Source of the DNA: an uncultured Bacilli bacterium
GTDB lineage: Bacteria; Bacillota_I; Bacilli_A; Izemoplasmatales; UBA1188
DNA length: 33,423 bases
Reading direction: 5' to 3'
NCBI GenBank assembly: GCA_905235635.1
Contig: CAJOMC010000014.1
Span: 1 to 33,423, forward strand
How positions within the stretch are numbered: position 1 is the first letter of the stretch; every line of letters starts with the position of its first letter. The notes beneath the pieces are model-generated. The model was not told where the DNA came from. It saw only the letters and a program-made list of their open reading frames with translations, and ran no database searches. Both the position numbers and the translations under genes were made by a program. Positions 17,447 through 32,391 of this stretch are shown piece after piece.

Positions 17447-18706
17447 CTATGGTTTAAGTAGATTAATTGGAACAACATATATTCCATCTTGTCTTTTATA
17501 TGCCTTACCTGCTGCAGTAAGAATCATCTTGAATGTAGGCTTTTGATGTTTTTCATCAATGGTATTTTCAAGTATATTTAGGTTTTCTACACCTTCATTT
17601 ATGCCATTTTCACTACCAAGCTTTATTTCTACGGCAGCCCATCTACCATCACTTAAATGTATTATTGCATCGCATTCTAGTCCATTGCTATCGCGGTAAT
17701 GTCTTACTTCTCCACCTAGTGATTCTGCATATACTTTTAGTTCATGAACTGCAAAATCTTCAAAGAAAAGACCGAAAGTATTTGAATCATTCATTAAATC
17801 AGATGGAGATACTTTTAGAGCACAACAAGCGATTGATGTATCAACAAAATGACGAGTATTAGTTGTCCTTATAGCAGCTTTGCTTCTAATATTTGGAGTC
17901 CATGCCTCAATATCTTCTATTATATATAGTTCTTCAGCAATTTCTAGATACGATTCAAATGTTTTGATGTCCATTACTCTACTATTTGATACCATAACAT
18001 CATTTAGTAGTGTTTGATATGTTGCTTCGGTCGAAACGTTTCTCGCATAACTTCTTAGAATCATTCTTAGCAATTCTGGATTTTTTCTTTTATATTTTAT
18101 ATTCTCACTATTTTTAAAATTAAATAACCCTTCATAGTAGTTTTTAGTTACATCAATAGATATATCTCTATCATCATTAATAGATCTTGGCCATCCACCT
18201 CTACAAATATAGAAGGCTGTATCCATCAAACGATAATCTTCGTTTAAATCTAGAATTGAAAAATTTTTATTATCAAATAACTCTAATAAAGAAACTTTGC
18301 CTTTAGATTCTAGCGTTTCATATAAGGTCAGCGTTCTCATTTTAATTGGAGTTATACGACCAGCTCCTGAATGGTGAATCTTTTTTTGATTAGGAGGAGT
18401 TGAACTACCAGTTAAAATAAATTCACCAAATTTATTATCATTATCAACTTTTTCCCTTACATAATTCCAAATCTCTGGAACATTTTGCCATTCGTCAATA
18501 AGTCTAGGACAGTCTCCAATTAATGCTTGTTTAGGATCAATAGAAACGATTTCAATAGTATCATCCGTAATTAATTGGATTTTGCTTTTACAAAACTGTT
18601 CTGACGTTGTTGTTTTGCCGCAAAACTTAGGACCTCTTATTTCTATAGCTCCTGATGACTTTAGCTTTCTTTCAATAGTTTTCTCGACTAATCTTTTTAA
18701 ATACAT
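17447..18706 (-). CDS. AAA ATPase with DUF4143 nuclease-like domain
   Basis: 419 residues of the AAA_14 + DUF4143 group. Walker A is GPKFCGKT (25-32) and Walker B is RLIDEW (68-73). The sensor region FILTGSSTP is present. The C-terminal domain carries a PD-(D/E)XK-like core: ECDAII...WAAVEIKLG, with Asp, Glu and Lys retained. The family is widespread in bacteria, often multi-copy and horizontally moved; function is uncertain, with links to defence or toxin-antitoxin-like roles. GTG at 18715 overlaps the AAGG Shine-Dalgarno, so the ATG at 18706 (eight bases on) is the start. Its promoter region holds an 18-bp palindrome and a four-unit repeat array, suggesting tight regulation. Confidence 0.82.
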   Translation of the reverse strand: MYLKRLVEKTIERKLKSSGAIEIRGPKFCGKTTTSEQFCKSKIQLITDDTIEIVSIDPKQALIGDCPRLIDEWQNVPEIWNYVREKVDNDNKFGEFILTGSSTPPNQKKIHHSGAGRITPIKMRTLTLYETLESKGKVSLLELFDNKNFSILDLNEDYRLMDTAFYICRGGWPRSINDDRDISIDVTKNYYEGLFNFKNSENIKYKRKNPELLRMILRSYARNVSTEATYQTLLNDVMVSNSRVMDIKTFESYLEIAEELYIIEDIEAWTPNIRSKAAIRTTNTRHFVDTSIACCALKVSPSDLMNDSNTFGLFFEDFAVHELKVYAESLGGEVRHYRDSNGLECDAIIHLSDGRWAAVEIKLGSENGINEGVENLNILENTIDEKHQKPTFKMILTAAGKAYKRQDGIYVVPINLLKP

Positions 18707-18726
18707 TTTTATCACCTTCTAATAGA

Positions 18727-18755
18727 ATTTTATCAATCATTATAATGATTGTCAA
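18727..18755 (-). promoter_or_regulatory. Promoter of the DUF4143 ATPase with 18-bp palindrome in the spacer
   Basis: TTGACA (18750-18755), a 17-base spacer, and TAAAAT (18727-18732) on the minus strand. CAATCATTATAATGATTG at 18734-18751 is a perfect 18-bp palindrome filling the spacer, an ideal repressor site. Confidence 0.7.
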
Positions 18756-18763
18756 CTGAAATT

Positions 18764-18844
18764 CCCAAGATTGTGACACTTAAACTCCCAAGATTGTGGA
18801 AGTTTCATTCCCAAGATTGTGACACTTAAACTCCCAAGATTGTG
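18764..18844. repeat. Four 12-bp repeats at exact 23-bp spacing
   Basis: CCCAAGATTGTG begins at 18764, 18787, 18810 and 18833. The 11-base linkers read ACACTTAAACT, GAAGTTTCATT, ACACTTAAACT, so the larger unit is a 46-bp duplication. The array lies directly upstream of the -35 of the DUF4143 ATPase gene. It is iteron-like. Candidates are a regulator array, a relic of an IS21-type end, or a replication-protein site. Confidence 0.75.
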
Positions 18845-18879
18845 GATTTTATAGTGTTTTCTTAATAATAACTCAATAT

Positions 18880-21982: not shown

Positions 21983-22700
21983 CTATTTGCTATTTAAAAT
22001 ATTAAGTGTAAATTTAGTGCCAAAAAAAGCAATATTGAAAATAATATTTTCTCCATTTTCATAATTGTCAAAAAAGCAATTGTAAATTTTATGTTCACTC
22101 TCTTCAAATGGTTTATATTCTTCTAAAATAGTTGCTTTTACGTGCCAAGGCTTCTTCAATCTACTTCCCATTCTAACAAAACCTATTATTTCATTATCTC
22201 ATTTGTCACTAATGCCTCAACTTCATTATACAAGCCGGAATCTACAATACTATATACGAAACTTTCAATTGCAATTTTGCACAAGAATCTAGTAAACAAG
22301 TAATCATCTTTATACTTGTAGAAATTGATTCCTTTCATTATAGCAATATCAGGAAATTTCCCTTGATAAAGTTTCATTGTTATTCTGGACTTATGACCAA
22401 AAGAATCGTTTTTTCGCCATTTATATTTGTCACATCTAACTGGCACTCTTCCCGGCCGAGCAATACGGAAGAGGTTCTTCTCTTACCTTTTTTGCTCCAA
22501 ATATCTTCTAAAGCCATAAGCATTTTAATGTCTTCATATGATTGTATAGGACCTTCTATTTCTCTAGAAAAATAATTATTACATTTATCACATACTATAC
22601 CCTTGTCGAGTATATATTTCTTATTGCCCATTGACTCGGGAATAATATGCTCAACACTTTTAGAAGAATCCGTATTACATTTGCAGAAAAAACATCTCAT
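21983..22700 (-). pseudogene. HNH endonuclease, interrupted by frameshifts
   Basis: The first segment (from ATG 22700, GGTG Shine-Dalgarno) has a clear zinc-bound HNH motif: CFFCKC, SVEHIIPE and VCDKCNNYF, as in HNH_5 nucleases. The frame then jumps at an A6 run near 22408 into the frame that ends at 22186. It jumps again near 22190 into the frame that ends at 21983 (containing KKPWHVKATILEEY). Joined, the product would be about 235 residues. A seventh A at the first run would restore frame. The second break is not at a long homopolymer, so genuine decay is likely. It lies downstream of the second ATPase-Toprim pair and may have belonged to it. Confidence 0.7.
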
Positions 22701-22763
22701 AATTTTACACCTTTCAGTTAATAAATAATTTAGATAGTTTTTGAAATATACATTATTGGTATG

Positions 22764-23275
22764 CTATTGCTTTCTTATAACTTTTAATGATTCTTTATTT
22801 GAATATTTTTTAAACGGTTCTTTTACATTTATTCTAGACCATATTTTATCTTTGGCGAAACTTACACTGTCTAATTTCTTAATTATATTAGATGAATGCA
22901 TGAACTCTTTTTTGAACTCTTTCTTTCCTACAGTACCAAATAAATCATTAATACTATTGAGATTAGTAGAATATACTATTTCATCTTCAAAGTTATTAAT
23001 TGAATGAATATGGTATATTTTTTTGAATCCAAATCTATTAAGCTTAGTTATATTCTCTTCCAATATTTCAGTTTTATTAACATCAATATCATAGACTAAA
23101 ATGATTATTGTGTCTTTTTTAATACCGCAATACGAGAATTTGAAATTGGTTTATTGATAAAATTAAAAACAGTTACCTTGCCAGGTGTTAGGTAATTATG
23201 TGGACTTATCTTTAGGGCATTTATCAATTTTTCTTCACACTCGCCTTCGACAAAATATTGATAAATCTTAATCAT
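22764..23275 (-). pseudogene. Toprim-like nuclease partner of AAA ATPase, interrupted by a -1 frameshift
   Basis: The ATG at 23275 overlaps the last eight bases of the ATPase gene. Zero frame encodes MIKIYQYFVEGECEEKL..., with the Toprim glutamate in FVEGE, and stops at TAA 23105-23107 after 56 codons. The -1 frame, entered at TTA AAA AAG (23114-23122), continues DTIIILVYDIDVNK, with the DxD acidic pair, then FEDEIV, to 22764. The joined protein would be about 170 residues, close to the other Toprim-like protein in this window. A AAA AAG is the classical bacterial -1 slippery heptamer (as in dnaX), so programmed frameshifting is possible. A lost A from an A7 run is the simpler reading. Confidence 0.65.
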
Positions 23276-24428
23276 CACTTTCGTCCTCTGCTAGTTCAAA
23301 GATTTTATTAACATTTGGTGCAGTATTAAACATATCATTATCTATTATTGTTTTAGGTGATACGTTGTTTCTGTTGTCGGCTTCACTTCCACAATTGATA
23401 GTAACTATTTGTTTGTCATTCACTTTCTCTTTTTTCATAAAATAAAATGAATGGAACGGAAAACCTAAACTTAATATATTCATATTATGTGTTGTAAAAA
23501 ATATTTGTTCATTTGGGCCCAATAATGATGCCATAGTTGATAACATAGCGGCTTCAATATCTGAGTTAACATACGAGAATTGTTCATCTACTAAATAGAT
23601 ACCATTATTATGATGTTTTATACCATATATAATATTTGCAATATTTACAGCATATTTAGTGCCGCTTGATAAAAGTGGAATATCTGATAATTTCATTTCT
23701 TCTTGTATTATTATCTTCTTGCCACAATCATGCTCTATTACATATGCATTATCAGTATCACTACTTTCATTAACATTAATGATTGACGAATCCATTGTTT
23801 TAAATACATCATTTAATATTTTGATGTATGTTTGCTGCTCGTATTCATTTTTAGTTTTTTCAAAGGTAATTGTATCAAACGGATACTCTGTTGCTGGAAG
23901 AACTACTCTCCAACCAGAATACGGGGTAATATCTTTTAAACATTCTATATAATCAACATAATTATCCGGAATGCTCTCTAATTCCTTTAATTTATTTTCG
24001 TAAGAGTCTTTAGAAGATTTAGTTGACGACAAATTAACATAAGTATGTGAAACCATAACTTTTGAATCTATAAGTTTTTCTGAAATTAATATTTTGTATC
24101 TATGTAAAATATGGTTTTCTTTTGTGTCTTCTACTAAATCGATTTCAATTTTTGAGTCTTGATCATTTTTGTTAGCTATTTCATCTAGTATTATTTTTTC
24201 TTTTCTATTTAGAAATAGTAATATTCTCCAAATACATTTAATTAAAGATGTTTTGCCAGAAGCATTTGAGCCAACAAAAATATTTAGTTTTTTATATCTA
24301 AATGATGGTACGTATTCTAAATTTTCGTTTTCAATTATGCTTGTTTTAAGCTTGTTTGGAAATGAAAAATTAACATCAAAATCATAAAATGATAACACGT
24401 TATCTAACTTAATATTTAGTATTGCCAT
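23268..24428 (-). CDS. AAA/ABC-type ATPase (AAA_21/OLD-like), defence-associated
   Basis: About 386 residues. Walker A is GSNASGKT (53-60), the ABC-like signature is LSSGTK (253-258), Walker B is IYLVDE (277-282) and the H-loop is TTHN (His314). This is a complete SMC/OLD-type ATPase core with a helical insert, and no fused nuclease. TTG at 24452 lies upstream of AAGGAG; the ATG at 24428, about nine bases after it, is the start. Its 3' end overlaps the Toprim gene by eight bases, so the two are translationally coupled. By family, the ATPase would sense invasion and control the Toprim partner. It differs clearly from the ATPase at 8338-9681 in sequence and insert. Confidence 0.75.
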   Translation of the reverse strand: MAILNIKLDNVLSFYDFDVNFSFPNKLKTSIIENENLEYVPSFRYKKLNIFVGSNASGKTSLIKCIWRILLFLNRKEKIILDEIANKNDQDSKIEIDLVEDTKENHILHRYKILISEKLIDSKVMVSHTYVNLSSTKSSKDSYENKLKELESIPDNYVDYIECLKDITPYSGWRVVLPATEYPFDTITFEKTKNEYEQQTYIKILNDVFKTMDSSIINVNESSDTDNAYVIEHDCGKKIIIQEEMKLSDIPLLSSGTKYAVNIANIIYGIKHHNNGIYLVDEQFSYVNSDIEAAMLSTMASLLGPNEQIFFTTHNMNILSLGFPFHSFYFMKKEKVNDKQIVTINCGSEADNRNNVSPKTIIDNDMFNTAPNVNKIFELAEDESDD

Positions 24429-24445
24429 AGCGATATTCTCCTTAT

Positions 24446-24505
24446 TATTCAAATATTTTGAATATTTATCATATATATTATATTACTAAAGTTAATATAT
24501 GACAA
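24446..24505 (-). promoter_or_regulatory. Promoter and leader palindrome of the second ATPase-Toprim pair
   Basis: TTGTCA (24500-24505), 17 bases, and TATAAT (24477-24482) on the minus strand. Just past the transcription start is the palindrome TATTCAAA-TAT-TTTGAATA (24446-24464), between start site and Shine-Dalgarno, a likely repressor site. Confidence 0.6.
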
Positions 24506-24876
24506 GAGAAAAACTATAGGAAAGTATTCCACCAATAAAAAGCATACTTCTCTTTGAAAAAGAATTAATTCTATATATAGTTAATTATTTCCTCGTTATA
24601 GGAGGTTCCTCTAAGATAGGAAATCTTCTATATTCATATTTTTCGTGCTGTATATGAGTAATCTGATAATCCAAATTTACTTCTTACCGTGCAGTTTCTT
24701 CTTCTTTCTTTTGAAATAGAAGACGGATTTCCTCCTATAAGTTCCACTATTGTTCTTATGCTTTTTCGTTCAACACAAAAAGTTCTTATACAGCAACTTT
24801 TTTCCACCAAGGTGCTGGATGTAAAACTAAAATTCTCCATACTTAGTCGAAAGTACCAATAAAGGTACTTTTCTAT
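24506..24876. other. Intergenic region with possible IS30-type transposase relic
   Basis: A minus-strand frame at 24634-24840 (68 codons) contains ERKSIRTIVELIGGNPSSIS followed by KERRRN. This resembles the helix-turn-helix of IS30-family transposases (ER..I......G..PSTISRE..RN). The remainder of a transposase is absent, no Shine-Dalgarno precedes the frame, and no inverted terminal repeats were seen. A terminator at 24850-24871 lies beside it. The rest of the stretch holds nothing recognisable. Confidence 0.35.
24850..24871 (-). terminator. Terminator of the NERD gene
   Basis: An 8-bp stem AAAGTACC-TTTATT-GGTACTTT on the minus strand, six bases after the stop, in T-rich surroundings. Confidence 0.65.
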
Positions 24877-25593
24877 CTATTTCTTATTTAATATAAATTT
24901 ACATTTAGGATAATTTGAACAACCTATAAACTTGCCATACTTTCCATTTCTTTCAACTAGTTGTCCACCACATCTAGGACATATGCCTTCTTTTAATTCT
25001 AATTGAGTTTTCTTAATAGTTTTAACGTGTTCTTTATTACTCATATCAGTATGGGCATTTATTAATTTATTATATATTTCATCCATCTCTTCTAATGAGT
25101 AATAAGTACCATCATCAAAACCTTTTAAATACCATTTTAGATTATTCAAATTAACTACATTAGGAAGAGCAACTTTATCAGCGTTGTTTTGAACCATAAC
25201 TACAACAGAATTAATCTTATATTTATTACCTAATACTTTACTTATATGATAAATATGAGATTTATTCTGTTTTAATGGATTAGTAAATTGGTGTTTTTCT
25301 CCTGTGTATAAACATTGAGTCCATTTATCTTGGTTTTCACTACCAAATATCCAACCTATATAGTTTTTAGTTTCAATACAAAATATACCATTATGTCTAA
25401 TTTCAATATGGTCTATCTGATGACTTTTACCATTATCATCTAAAAGTATTAAATTATTTATTTGTCTATGTTCAACCTTACCAAAGAACCAAGGGTTGAG
25501 TTTAGAGTCAACCCTTGCTTCTCCTATTTTGCCTTTACGGTTGTTTATTGCAGGTTGAGCAATAGTTTTTACTATTTTCTTAAGTAGACTCAT
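24877..25593 (-). CDS. NERD-domain nuclease-like protein with topoisomerase-type zinc finger
   Basis: 238 residues. An N-terminal NERD domain (about residues 18-130) contains GKIGEARV, the acidic HQIDHIEI, and the catalytic-type ETKNY (Glu-x-Lys) of the PD-(D/E)XK fold. A C-terminal C4 zinc finger as in topoisomerase IA (CPRCGG...GCSNYPKCKF, residues ~205-235) would bind single-stranded DNA. NERD proteins are found in DNA-processing and defence contexts; the precise role is unknown. The ATG at 25593 has only a weak Shine-Dalgarno. It follows the hsdM relic and a 40-codon fragment in the same direction and could share their transcript. A hairpin terminator follows the stop. Confidence 0.8.
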   Translation of the reverse strand: MSLLKKIVKTIAQPAINNRKGKIGEARVDSKLNPWFFGKVEHRQINNLILLDDNGKSHQIDHIEIRHNGIFCIETKNYIGWIFGSENQDKWTQCLYTGEKHQFTNPLKQNKSHIYHISKVLGNKYKINSVVVMVQNNADKVALPNVVNLNNLKWYLKGFDDGTYYSLEEMDEIYNKLINAHTDMSNKEHVKTIKKTQLELKEGICPRCGGQLVERNGKYGKFIGCSNYPKCKFILNKK

Positions 25594-29554: not shown

Positions 29555-30808
29555 TTAATAATTATTTAGTAAAAAATCTTTTAAAGAAATAACATTAATT
29601 GTTTTATCATCAATATGAATTGTTTTCTTTTCATCATAAGTAACAATAATGAGTTTCAAATTATTATTATCTGACTTTGCAAAATTAATTAAATTGTCTA
29701 TTTCTCTATCATATGTGTCCTGTTCGTTTAATGAGTATGCAACTTGAATCAAAATATTATTATTAGGCAAGTAAAAATCAACATCTACTTTTTTACCTTT
29801 TAGATAATACATTTCGTAGTTATCTCTATACAAATTGATAGCTACTATATTTTCTAATAGGGCAGATTTTTTGCCATCAACAAATAGGTTTAATACACCA
29901 TTATCTCTAAAATAGTACTTAGGATTACTGTTTTTATCAACAAACGAAGCGTAATAATTTTCAATAGTAAATAAAAGGAACGAATCTTTAATATACCCGC
30001 AATAATCAATTATCACATCTTTTGATATCTTATATCCAATACTACTGATTGTGTTTTGCAGTCTCGTATATGAAATATCTTGTAGAACTGACTCAGATAT
30101 TTTTTTAATTAGTAATTTCATGCCGTTTTCACTTCTAACCTTATTATGAGTGATGATATCGTTATATAAAACCTTTTGGTATACACTAGACACATATTCT
30201 CTTTTATTTTTGAAGTCAACGGATGCAGGGAAGCCCCCATATATGAAGTATTGTTCTAAAAGATTATTAGCTTTCGCAATTTCTTTGGTTGAAAGCACGT
30301 TGCTATTTACGTTATGTGCTCTTAAATACTCTCTAAAAGAATAAGGCAATATTTCTTTTGATATATATCTTCCACCAAGTTTAGCAGCCACTTCTTTTGA
30401 CAACATTTTTGCGTTACTACCAGTTATATCAACCTTATATCCTTGATTTGCAATACGAATCGCAAATTTTTCCCAATCATCAATATTTTGTATTTCATCA
30501 AAATAAAAGTAATGCTTTTTAGAAGTCATTTCTTCTGCAGCAAGTAAAATATCATCAAAATCAGTAAGTTTAAAATCGACAAGTCTTTCGTCATCAAAAT
30601 TTATATAAACAATTTGATTCCACTCTACACCTTCGTTTATTAAGTCTTTAACTCGTTTATAAAGTAATGTTGTTTTACCGGCACGTCTTAATCCAACTAA
30701 TACATAATTAGCATTCTTCTCTAGTTCAATATCTCTATCAATAATAACGGCATCGCGTATTACTTGGTGTTGATCATATATTATTTTTTTAAGTACTTCC
30801 TTATTCAT
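29555..30808 (-). CDS. AAA ATPase with DUF4143 domain
   Basis: 417 residues. Walker A is GLRRAGKT (39-46) and Walker B is FYFDEI (101-106). DITGSNAKML forms the sensor strand, and FREYLRAHN plus YGGFPASV are family hallmarks after the AAA domain. The C-terminal DUF4143 nuclease-like core has KVDVDFYLPNNNILIQVAYSL. The usual catalytic Glu-x-Lys is replaced by Gln-x-Ala, so nuclease activity is doubtful, unlike the paralogue at 17447-18706. AGGAGG lies about nine bases before the ATG. The promoter is embedded in two 18-bp direct repeats. It sits next to abiEi/abiEii in a toxin-antitoxin-rich stretch. Confidence 0.85.
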   Translation of the reverse strand: MNKEVLKKIIYDQHQVIRDAVIIDRDIELEKNANYVLVGLRRAGKTTLLYKRVKDLINEGVEWNQIVYINFDDERLVDFKLTDFDDILLAAEEMTSKKHYFYFDEIQNIDDWEKFAIRIANQGYKVDITGSNAKMLSKEVAAKLGGRYISKEILPYSFREYLRAHNVNSNVLSTKEIAKANNLLEQYFIYGGFPASVDFKNKREYVSSVYQKVLYNDIITHNKVRSENGMKLLIKKISESVLQDISYTRLQNTISSIGYKISKDVIIDYCGYIKDSFLLFTIENYYASFVDKNSNPKYYFRDNGVLNLFVDGKKSALLENIVAINLYRDNYEMYYLKGKKVDVDFYLPNNNILIQVAYSLNEQDTYDREIDNLINFAKSDNNNLKLIIVTYDEKKTIHIDDKTINVISLKDFLLNNY

Positions 30809-30823
30809 ATATAGTGCCTCCTA

Positions 30824-30874
30824 TGTCGACTATATTATACAATAATTATATGTTTTTGTCGAGTATATTCTACA
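30824..30874 (-). promoter_or_regulatory. Promoter inside two 18-bp direct repeats
   Basis: The plus-strand repeats TGTCGACTATATTATACA (30824-30841) and TGTCGAGTATATTCTACA (30857-30874) match at 16 of 18 positions and are 33 bp apart. On the minus strand the right copy contains the -35 TCGACA (30857-30862) and the left copy the -10 TATAAT (30834-30839), with a 17-base spacer. A regulator bound to both would cover the promoter. Confidence 0.65.
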
Positions 30875-30956
30875 TAATCATAAAAAACTATCGTTTTCTG
30901 AGTATTTTAAATAGTAATTTGTACCTTTAGGCTACTAAATCTTTTTTGATGCCTTT

Positions 30957-31811
30957 TTATTCACACTCTAATAAATCAACTGAGTTAATAAACATATTTT
31001 TATCAAGGCTATCCAAATTATAATCACTACTAATAAAAGGTATAATATCATCTTTTATTGCATTAAAATCTGATTCTATAAATTTATTAATCAATAATTC
31101 TTTAATACTCATGATTGTATAGTTTGATGTATCCTTATCTAGCGAAAAAGCTAATTTGTTTTTTAAATACTCCAAATTAAATTTAACATTATGTGATATG
31201 TAAAACATATAATCATAGTAGTCTCTACCTTTCGTTCTTTCTCTCCAGTTTCTCGTTAATAGTGCGTTTAACTTACCAGAAAATAAAGATCCATAATCGA
31301 AACAATATATATAGGAAAACATTGGAGAATTCAGTAATTTCATTTCATATTTAGCACCAGGAATATATTTTGTGCTCACTTCAATTTTTATTGAGATTAG
31401 CTTTTCCTTATTTAAGCTAATCTTTTCAAAATACTCATTAGCCAAATCGTAATGAGATATTTTGATATATCTTCTTCTCACCTCACCAGTATCATAATCA
31501 GGCTTTGAATAAACTACAGATTTTAATCCATATGATTCAAGCACATTAATACATCTAGACATATATTGATCAAAATCAAGTTTATAGTTTTCACTTATTA
31601 CTTGGAAATCTAAATCCTCGCTAAATCTATCTAGGTTGTGAAATATTCTTAAGCAGGTACCTCCATAGAAAGCAACATTCTTAAAGAAAGATGTTTGAGA
31701 TAGCGCGTATAATATTATCTTTTGAGATATTTCTCTTAATGCGTTTTCGAATTCGTTTAGATTTTTAGGATTGCTTATTTTTAGTGACTCCAAAATATAA
31801 TTATTAATCAT
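30957..31811 (-). CDS. abiEii: AbiEii nucleotidyltransferase toxin
   Basis: 284 residues of the AbiEii/type IV toxin family of DNA polymerase beta-type nucleotidyltransferases. The hallmark GGTCLRIFHNLDRFSEDLDFQ appears at about residues 50-70, with the Ser/Thr and the acidic DLD metal-binding pair. A later conserved LLTRNWRERTKGRDYYDYMFY (K-x-R-D-x-x-D) is also present. The toxin is GTP-dependent and halts growth when phage infects. Its ATG overlaps the last eight bases of the antitoxin gene, the usual arrangement. No strong hairpin is seen directly after the stop; a weak GGC/GCC stem occurs at about 30931-30955. Confidence 0.9.
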   Translation of the reverse strand: MINNYILESLKISNPKNLNEFENALREISQKIILYALSQTSFFKNVAFYGGTCLRIFHNLDRFSEDLDFQVISENYKLDFDQYMSRCINVLESYGLKSVVYSKPDYDTGEVRRRYIKISHYDLANEYFEKISLNKEKLISIKIEVSTKYIPGAKYEMKLLNSPMFSYIYCFDYGSLFSGKLNALLTRNWRERTKGRDYYDYMFYISHNVKFNLEYLKNKLAFSLDKDTSNYTIMSIKELLINKFIESDFNAIKDDIIPFISSDYNLDSLDKNMFINSVDLLECE

Positions 31812-32391
31812 GTGTTTCCTCCAAATATCTCTTTAAAACATTTAGTGTTTTAGATGAATATAAATCGCATAATTCTATTATTTTATTTGTATTCAATTCA
31901 TCAAACATTACTTCATCTATCCTTAAATCATCAAATAGTAGGTTCAGTAATTCTCTTTTATTATTTCTTGGCGATATAACTGATAATAAATCAAGGAGTG
32001 CCTTTTCAGGGGATGCGATTAAAACTTTTGAGCCATCTATTTCAATCTCATTAACACCATATGGATAAGCCTTTGAATTAATATCTTGGTATAAGAATAG
32101 GCCAAAATAATTCTTATATGTTTTTTTCTTATTTTTTTTAAATGAGGCAGACTTAATAGTATATACTTTTTCTGGTATCATTCCATAATAAGATAGAGCT
32201 GTCTCAAATGAAATATACGAAGGTAATAATAAATTATTAGCTATAATAAAGGGATCACTGTCTTTACTCGTTTCATAAAGACCACGCTTAAGTTTTATTA
32301 GATTATTCTTTCTTACTTCTGATGAGATTTTCTTAAAAGGGTCTGAATAGTCTTTATACTCATATAGCAATAAATCAATACTCTTAATCAT
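31804..32391 (-). CDS. abiEi: AbiEi antitoxin, winged-helix regulator
   Basis: 195 residues, the partner of AbiEii. The N-terminal winged-helix DNA-binding region (residues ~1-60, with LIKLKRGLYE) is followed by the AbiEi core (YISFETALSYYGMIPE and SPEKALLDLL). In the family it neutralises the toxin and represses the operon by binding inverted repeats. An 18-residue-scale length difference from longer AbiEi forms suggests the shorter AbiEi_4 group. AGGAGG is placed seven bases before the ATG. The TTTCCTCCT / AGGAGGAAA inverted repeat around the -10 (32395-32437) is the expected operator. Confidence 0.88.
   Translation of the reverse strand: MIKSIDLLLYEYKDYSDPFKKISSEVRKNNLIKLKRGLYETSKDSDPFIIANNLLLPSYISFETALSYYGMIPEKVYTIKSASFKKNKKKTYKNYFGLFLYQDINSKAYPYGVNEIEIDGSKVLIASPEKALLDLLSVISPRNNKRELLNLLFDDLRIDEVMFDELNTNKIIELCDLYSSKTLNVLKRYLEETHD

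Follow-up and report, generated by a model that had tools for sequence, protein, structure and literature searches.

The family listed by PADLOC as PDC-S01 (AAA_14-DUF4143, COG1373) is the described system to which the gene considered here is closest. Passages of a 2026 survey describe PDC-S01 as an ATPase fused to PD-(D/E)xK, place it fourth in frequency among prokaryotic defences, with counts of 29,494 for Bacteria and 9,986 for Archaea, and treat it as a candidate anti-phage family, most PDCs awaiting validation (PMC12988326). COG1373 is also listed among transferred genes in one paper. Passages on PDC-S01, including those returned by a search with 'direct repeat', mention neither promoter arrays nor self-DNA recognition, and no array is described for DUF4143/COG1373 in passages of the openly accessible literature searched; nor did that literature yield a mechanism for PDC-S01, which is counted among the commonest candidate defence genes. 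From the sequence comparisons described below we consider it likely that a direct-repeat array upstream of such a gene is its private operator, and that the DUF4143 protein binds the units itself and most likely represses its own transcription.

The window, by which we mean the whole analysed stretch of 33,423 nucleotides, encodes on its minus strand a 419-aa protein that matches the PDC-S01 model PDLC04790 (4.3e-60); PDC-S01 models also match members of other DUF4143 clades. The gene and the elements that precede it are, in the direction of its transcription:

18832-18844, minus strand: array unit 1, core CACAATCTTGGGA, most distant from the promoter
18809-18821, minus strand: array unit 2, core CACAATCTTGGGA
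18786-18798, minus strand: array unit 3, core CACAATCTTGGGA
18763-18775, minus strand: array unit 4, core CACAATCTTGGGA, adjoining the -35
18750-18755, minus strand: -35 hexamer TTGACA
18734-18751, no strand: perfect 18-bp palindrome CAATCATTATAATGATTG
18727-18732, minus strand: -10 hexamer TAAAAT, with a 17-bp spacer from the -35
18715-18720, minus strand: ribosome-binding site AGAAGG, by direct reading
17447-18706, minus strand: AAA_14-DUF4143 protein, 419 aa, with start ATG 18706

Exact copies of CCCAAGATTGTG stand on the plus strand at 18764-18775, 18787-18798, 18810-18821 and 18833-18844, starting 23 bp from each other, and CACAATCTTGGGA is the array unit in the gene's direction. A search for paired copies at the 23-bp spacing found 3 matches and, in 100 dinucleotide shuffles, none (chance expectation 0), and direct comparison shows that the alternate linkers are identical, so that the array is built on a 46-bp repeat. 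Both the four regularly spaced 12-mers and the 46-bp duplication of the first-pass annotation are therefore real, and so is its placement of the array directly upstream of a consensus promoter, since the array ends 7 bp from the TTGACA of a TTGACA-17-TAAAAT promoter. At the -35 the string GACAATC is nearly in register with the array (22 bp) and resembles the unit frame ACAATC. The palindrome is indeed perfect, but it had been taken for the promoter spacer itself, and this part did not hold: it spans most of the spacer and the last two bases of the -35. It is missing in orthologues 85% and 70% identical to the protein, although both retain the array, and it is therefore probably incidental; as a conserved operator it was ruled out on the same ground. 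Translation likely starts at ATG 18706 and not at GTG 18715.

The array is inherited together with its gene. In the 85% identical orthologue, from another GTDB family, the unit occurs four times, two of the copies having one mismatch, and the DNA similarity between this locus and the window covers only 17459-18853, that is, array, promoter and gene. The 70% identical orthologue, from a third family, has the unit three times, and in a relative 56% identical the array unit is related yet altered. The motif occupies a single locus in the source genome and, because no exact copy was found outside its own array in the three genomes that carry it, the operator site would be private, serving one gene and no regulon. 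A regulon was considered and rejected: outside the array there are only single-mismatch matches, and both of those in genome G000 lie inside coding sequence. Viral decoy arrays were dismissed as well, the sole IMG/VR match lying in a GC-rich phage gene whose coding sequence is repetitive. This phage sequence (L261, 1328-1440) repeats ACCACAATCTTGGGCGG and appears to be a chance match within the gene of a repetitive low-complexity protein. A structured RNA could also be set aside, with no Rfam match near the gathering score and the array lying upstream of the -35.

The source genome has 11 DUF4143 genes, most of them preceded by differing repeat arrays. Homologues were then gathered by protein similarity alone, disregarding arrays, and the 170 bp upstream of each was scored for self-similarity. 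The median score of 113 non-redundant homologues was 31, against 9 both in shuffles and in 270 control genes of the same genomes, and the array threshold was passed by 97% of the homologues as compared with 3.7% in each control; the top-scoring control gene is itself a DUF4143 gene. Among the 110 homologues that passed, the best period was 23 bp in 103 and 46 bp in 7, the core-to-core spacing being 23 bp in 243 of 255 cases and the usual copy number three or four. A later set, mainly of Clostridia genomes together with seven viral contigs, had 23 or 46 as best period in 66 of 73. The proposal of the first-pass annotation that a protein binds in phase at the promoter of this DUF4143 ATPase is thereby strongly supported at the level of sequence, and the search upstream of relatives that it had recommended returned arrays almost everywhere. 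Arrays with the 23-bp period also precede relatives on plasmids of Bacteroides, Collinsella and Prosthecochloris; most gene copies found are on chromosomal or MAG contigs, the sampled genomes probably being mostly MAGs. One relative within the source genome (L021) has no array upstream. Genes with 23-bp arrays are also present in two genomes (L142, L143) where the gene is open only if TGA is read as tryptophan, as in a mycoplasma-like code.

Other DUF4143 clades have arrangements of their own. In clade 2, arrays of 32-34 bp precede 27 of 35 genes, the unit being about one helical turn longer, and some of these arrays extend to the ribosome-binding site. In clade 3, 20 of 31 genes have two dyad copies 62-99 bp apart; for 18 of these 20 genes the second copy ends 3-21 nt ahead of the start codon, and this placement is the layout of a repressor. 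The clade 3 dyads are gene-specific, AAAATGCGTCCATACGCAAAAATA for instance, and flank the core promoter (upstream regions of L030, L226-L254). For Thermus thermophilus TT_P0211, passages of an earlier study report a 6.6-fold induction with plasmid and TtAgo (Argonaute) (PMC4406477). We found no array upstream of the operon of this AAA_14-DUF4143 gene (L260, 14854-16319), which makes it a candidate for different control.

The protein itself is divided as follows, all coordinates being on the minus strand:

18092-18706, minus strand: residues 1-205, P-loop ATPase, Walker A GPKxxGKT and Walker B LIDEW invariant
17837-18079, minus strand: residues 210-290, winged helix-turn-helix, from the structure model
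17930-17968, minus strand: residues 247-259, recognition helix, residue 248 of which covaries with motif positions 9-11
17450-17836, minus strand: residues 291-419, PD-(D/E)xK domain, E344-x-D346...E360-x-K362, in which residue 340 covaries with positions 0-2

Both Pfam families are matched well above their cut-offs (PF13635, 109 bits against 28.1; PF13173, 54 bits against 27), and the Walker and PD-(D/E)xK residues are intact, G30, K31, D71, E72, E344, D346 and K362 being invariant and E360 conserved in at least 90%. The AlphaFold model (pLDDT 95, from a 72-sequence alignment) is that of an ATPase with a winged helix and a PD-(D/E)xK nuclease, and its Foldseek matches are STAND ATPases, Orc1/Cdc6 and the Card1 nuclease; for the ATPase and winged-helix part the best full-length neighbours are STAND ATPases (SSO1545, NLRs, Avs5) and Orc1/Cdc6. 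A sequence search of the PDB returned no relative.

Phase alignment of 118 arrays, which may be 1 bp off in some clades, gives the frame GMCAAW-NNNNNN-AAT followed by an A-rich linker, where the middle of the frame is variable between genes and constant inside one array. The motif, differing from gene to gene, tracks protein similarity (Mantel r 0.39, P 0.001), and a partial correlation from which overall identity was removed leaves signal only in the recognition helix with its turn (P 0.005) and in the wing (P 0.01); these permutation tests ignore phylogeny, a problem that clustering and held-out tests lessen. When only protein pairs below 45% identity are compared, motif positions 8-11 are associated with residues 246-248, and positions 0-2 with residues 273, 340 and 384. 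The held-out test was trained on the first 118 pairs and applied to 30 new loci, all below 65% identity to each of those pairs, whose array phases were assigned without protein information. In this test residue 248 comes first among 374 columns for positions 9-11, with 1.0 bit per array (0.34 for the next column), and about 370th for positions 0-2; for the latter, first place belongs to residue 340, beside the nuclease active site, with 1.3 bits (0.55 for the next). Associations significant over 71 clusters are those of K248 with G10 (P 6e-5), D248 with C9 (3e-6) and G11 (4e-5), P248 with A11 (9e-5), N248 with C11 (4e-4), and K340 with GCC at positions 0-2 (C2 in 18 of 19, 1e-7). The 419-aa protein has K248 and S340, and its motif has GGG and CAC, consistent with these associations. 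As residues 248 and 340 predict opposite halves of the repeat, the array is probably read by the protein itself, at two places. It is mainly because of this double dissociation that we take the binding to be its own, and one of the two parts involved to belong to the nuclease domain.

The arrays also keep regular positions relative to promoters. Counted from where the last unit starts, the -10 lies 42-43 bp away in 47 arrays and 19-21 bp away in 31, the difference being one unit, and the -35 of these promoters fits the unit frame. The promoters are near consensus (median score 8.8 at array genes, 4.9 in controls), and an array placed at the -35 of promoters this strong points towards repression. 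Binding of the DUF4143 protein to its own array is, judging from the covariation, highly probable; given binding, we would still expect repression with good confidence. It would be logical to suggest a division of labour, the recognition helix being responsible for reading the 3' part of the core and a nuclease-domain loop for reading its 5' part, inside the family-wide frame that the A-rich linker follows, with copies of the protein bound side by side adjoining or over the -35. Bound in this way, the protein would most likely repress its own transcription and keep a potentially dangerous nuclease scarce until it is displaced. Phage infection is an obvious candidate for the release signal, because PADLOC lists the family as PDC-S01. 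A bolder version, which we regard as rather doubtful, sees an immune machine that rests on the array and is triggered from it: the ATPase-nuclease would assemble on the repeats of its own promoter, with its nuclease domain helping to read them, displacement by an invader would both derepress the gene and free an active nuclease, and fast divergence of specificity would prevent cross-talk between paralogues of one cell.

Should the protein bind as proposed, it might instead activate its promoter in positive feedback, like a class I or II activator at or upstream of the -35. It is true that the arrays of about half of clade 1 abut the -35 at a fixed distance without covering it, a position that activators also use. 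We find such activation unlikely, since promoters near consensus should have no need of an activator; the second clade 3 site, which ends no more than about 20 nt from the start codon, and those clade 2 arrays that run into the ribosome-binding site speak against it too. It is less probable again that the array is mainly an assembly platform of the ATPase-nuclease for defence sensing or self-marking, with secondary effects on transcription. Such a platform would agree with the copy number of three to four, with the Foldseek resemblance of the P-loop ATPase to STAND NLRs and Avs5, with the listing as a defence candidate, and with the intact nuclease motif, a loop residue of which covaries with the repeat, but the arrays are locked to the promoter in phase and orientation and no stray units occur elsewhere in the three genomes.

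Direct-repeat arrays are a common form of operator, and some different host regulator could in principle occupy this one; this is very improbable, given the many differing motifs beside paralogues within one genome, each predicted by the helix residues of the adjacent protein. The first-pass annotation had offered a plasmid-type replication site and an IS21-type end as alternatives, and both are disfavoured because neither has a reason to be locked to a promoter in phase and orientation. Origin iterons with the ATPase as an Orc1/Cdc6-like initiator would account for the 23-bp direct repeats, for the Foldseek matches to Orc1/Cdc6 with origin DNA and for the occurrence of gene and array on some plasmids, but the copies are mostly on chromosomal or MAG contigs, with up to 11 paralogues per genome and arrays differing among them, the unit common to orthologues consists of array and gene only, and the promoter-array DNA matches no plasmid record; we give this explanation hardly any weight. 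An insertion-sequence end, whether of IS21 type or another, has least of all to recommend it: repeated motifs do occur in IS21 ends, but there is no transposase domain among the neighbour genes searched and no IS-like boundary, the array DNA has no plasmid match and its motif a single genomic locus, and the same layout precedes unrelated DUF4143 genes.

Elsewhere in the window, a second DUF4143 gene (29555-32391, minus strand; PDLC04787, 8e-92) adjoins an AbiEi/AbiEii-like type IV toxin-antitoxin pair and has TCGACA-type repeated sites about 33 bp apart around its promoter, which are also found in an 82% identical orthologue (L257). Between the two DUF4143 genes, the region 22383-25593 (minus strand) encodes an HNH-like small protein, an AAA_21 (AbiEii/OLD-like) ATPase and a protein with NERD and a topoisomerase zinc finger, and looks like a small defence island.

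If genes of this family carry their cognate DNA alongside, thousands of natural protein-DNA pairs could be read from genomes. The named residues would then provide a recognition code open to direct testing, with an assay ligand for every such member, and the array would give a handle on how the system stays off and what releases it.

Repeat-based autoregulation is already known, and what appears to be new is its occurrence in this family, its scale and the reading of DNA by a nuclease domain. The Rep-iteron autoregulation of plasmids is similar in that direct repeats of about 20-23 bp stand next to the gene and its own product reads them with a winged helix, whereas the product here is an ATPase-nuclease, the arrays are tied to promoters, and the copies are mostly chromosomal with no replicon evident. 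Toxin-antitoxin and restriction-modification C-protein operons likewise place a defence-type gene under its own DNA-binding product; here, in contrast, a single protein would combine ATPase, DNA reading and nuclease, with no separate antitoxin or C protein. STAND ATPases and Orc1/Cdc6 resemble the modelled fold of the ATPase and winged-helix part, at TM-scores of only 0.2-0.4, but where they have sensor repeats or initiator parts the protein described here is predicted to have a PD-(D/E)xK domain.
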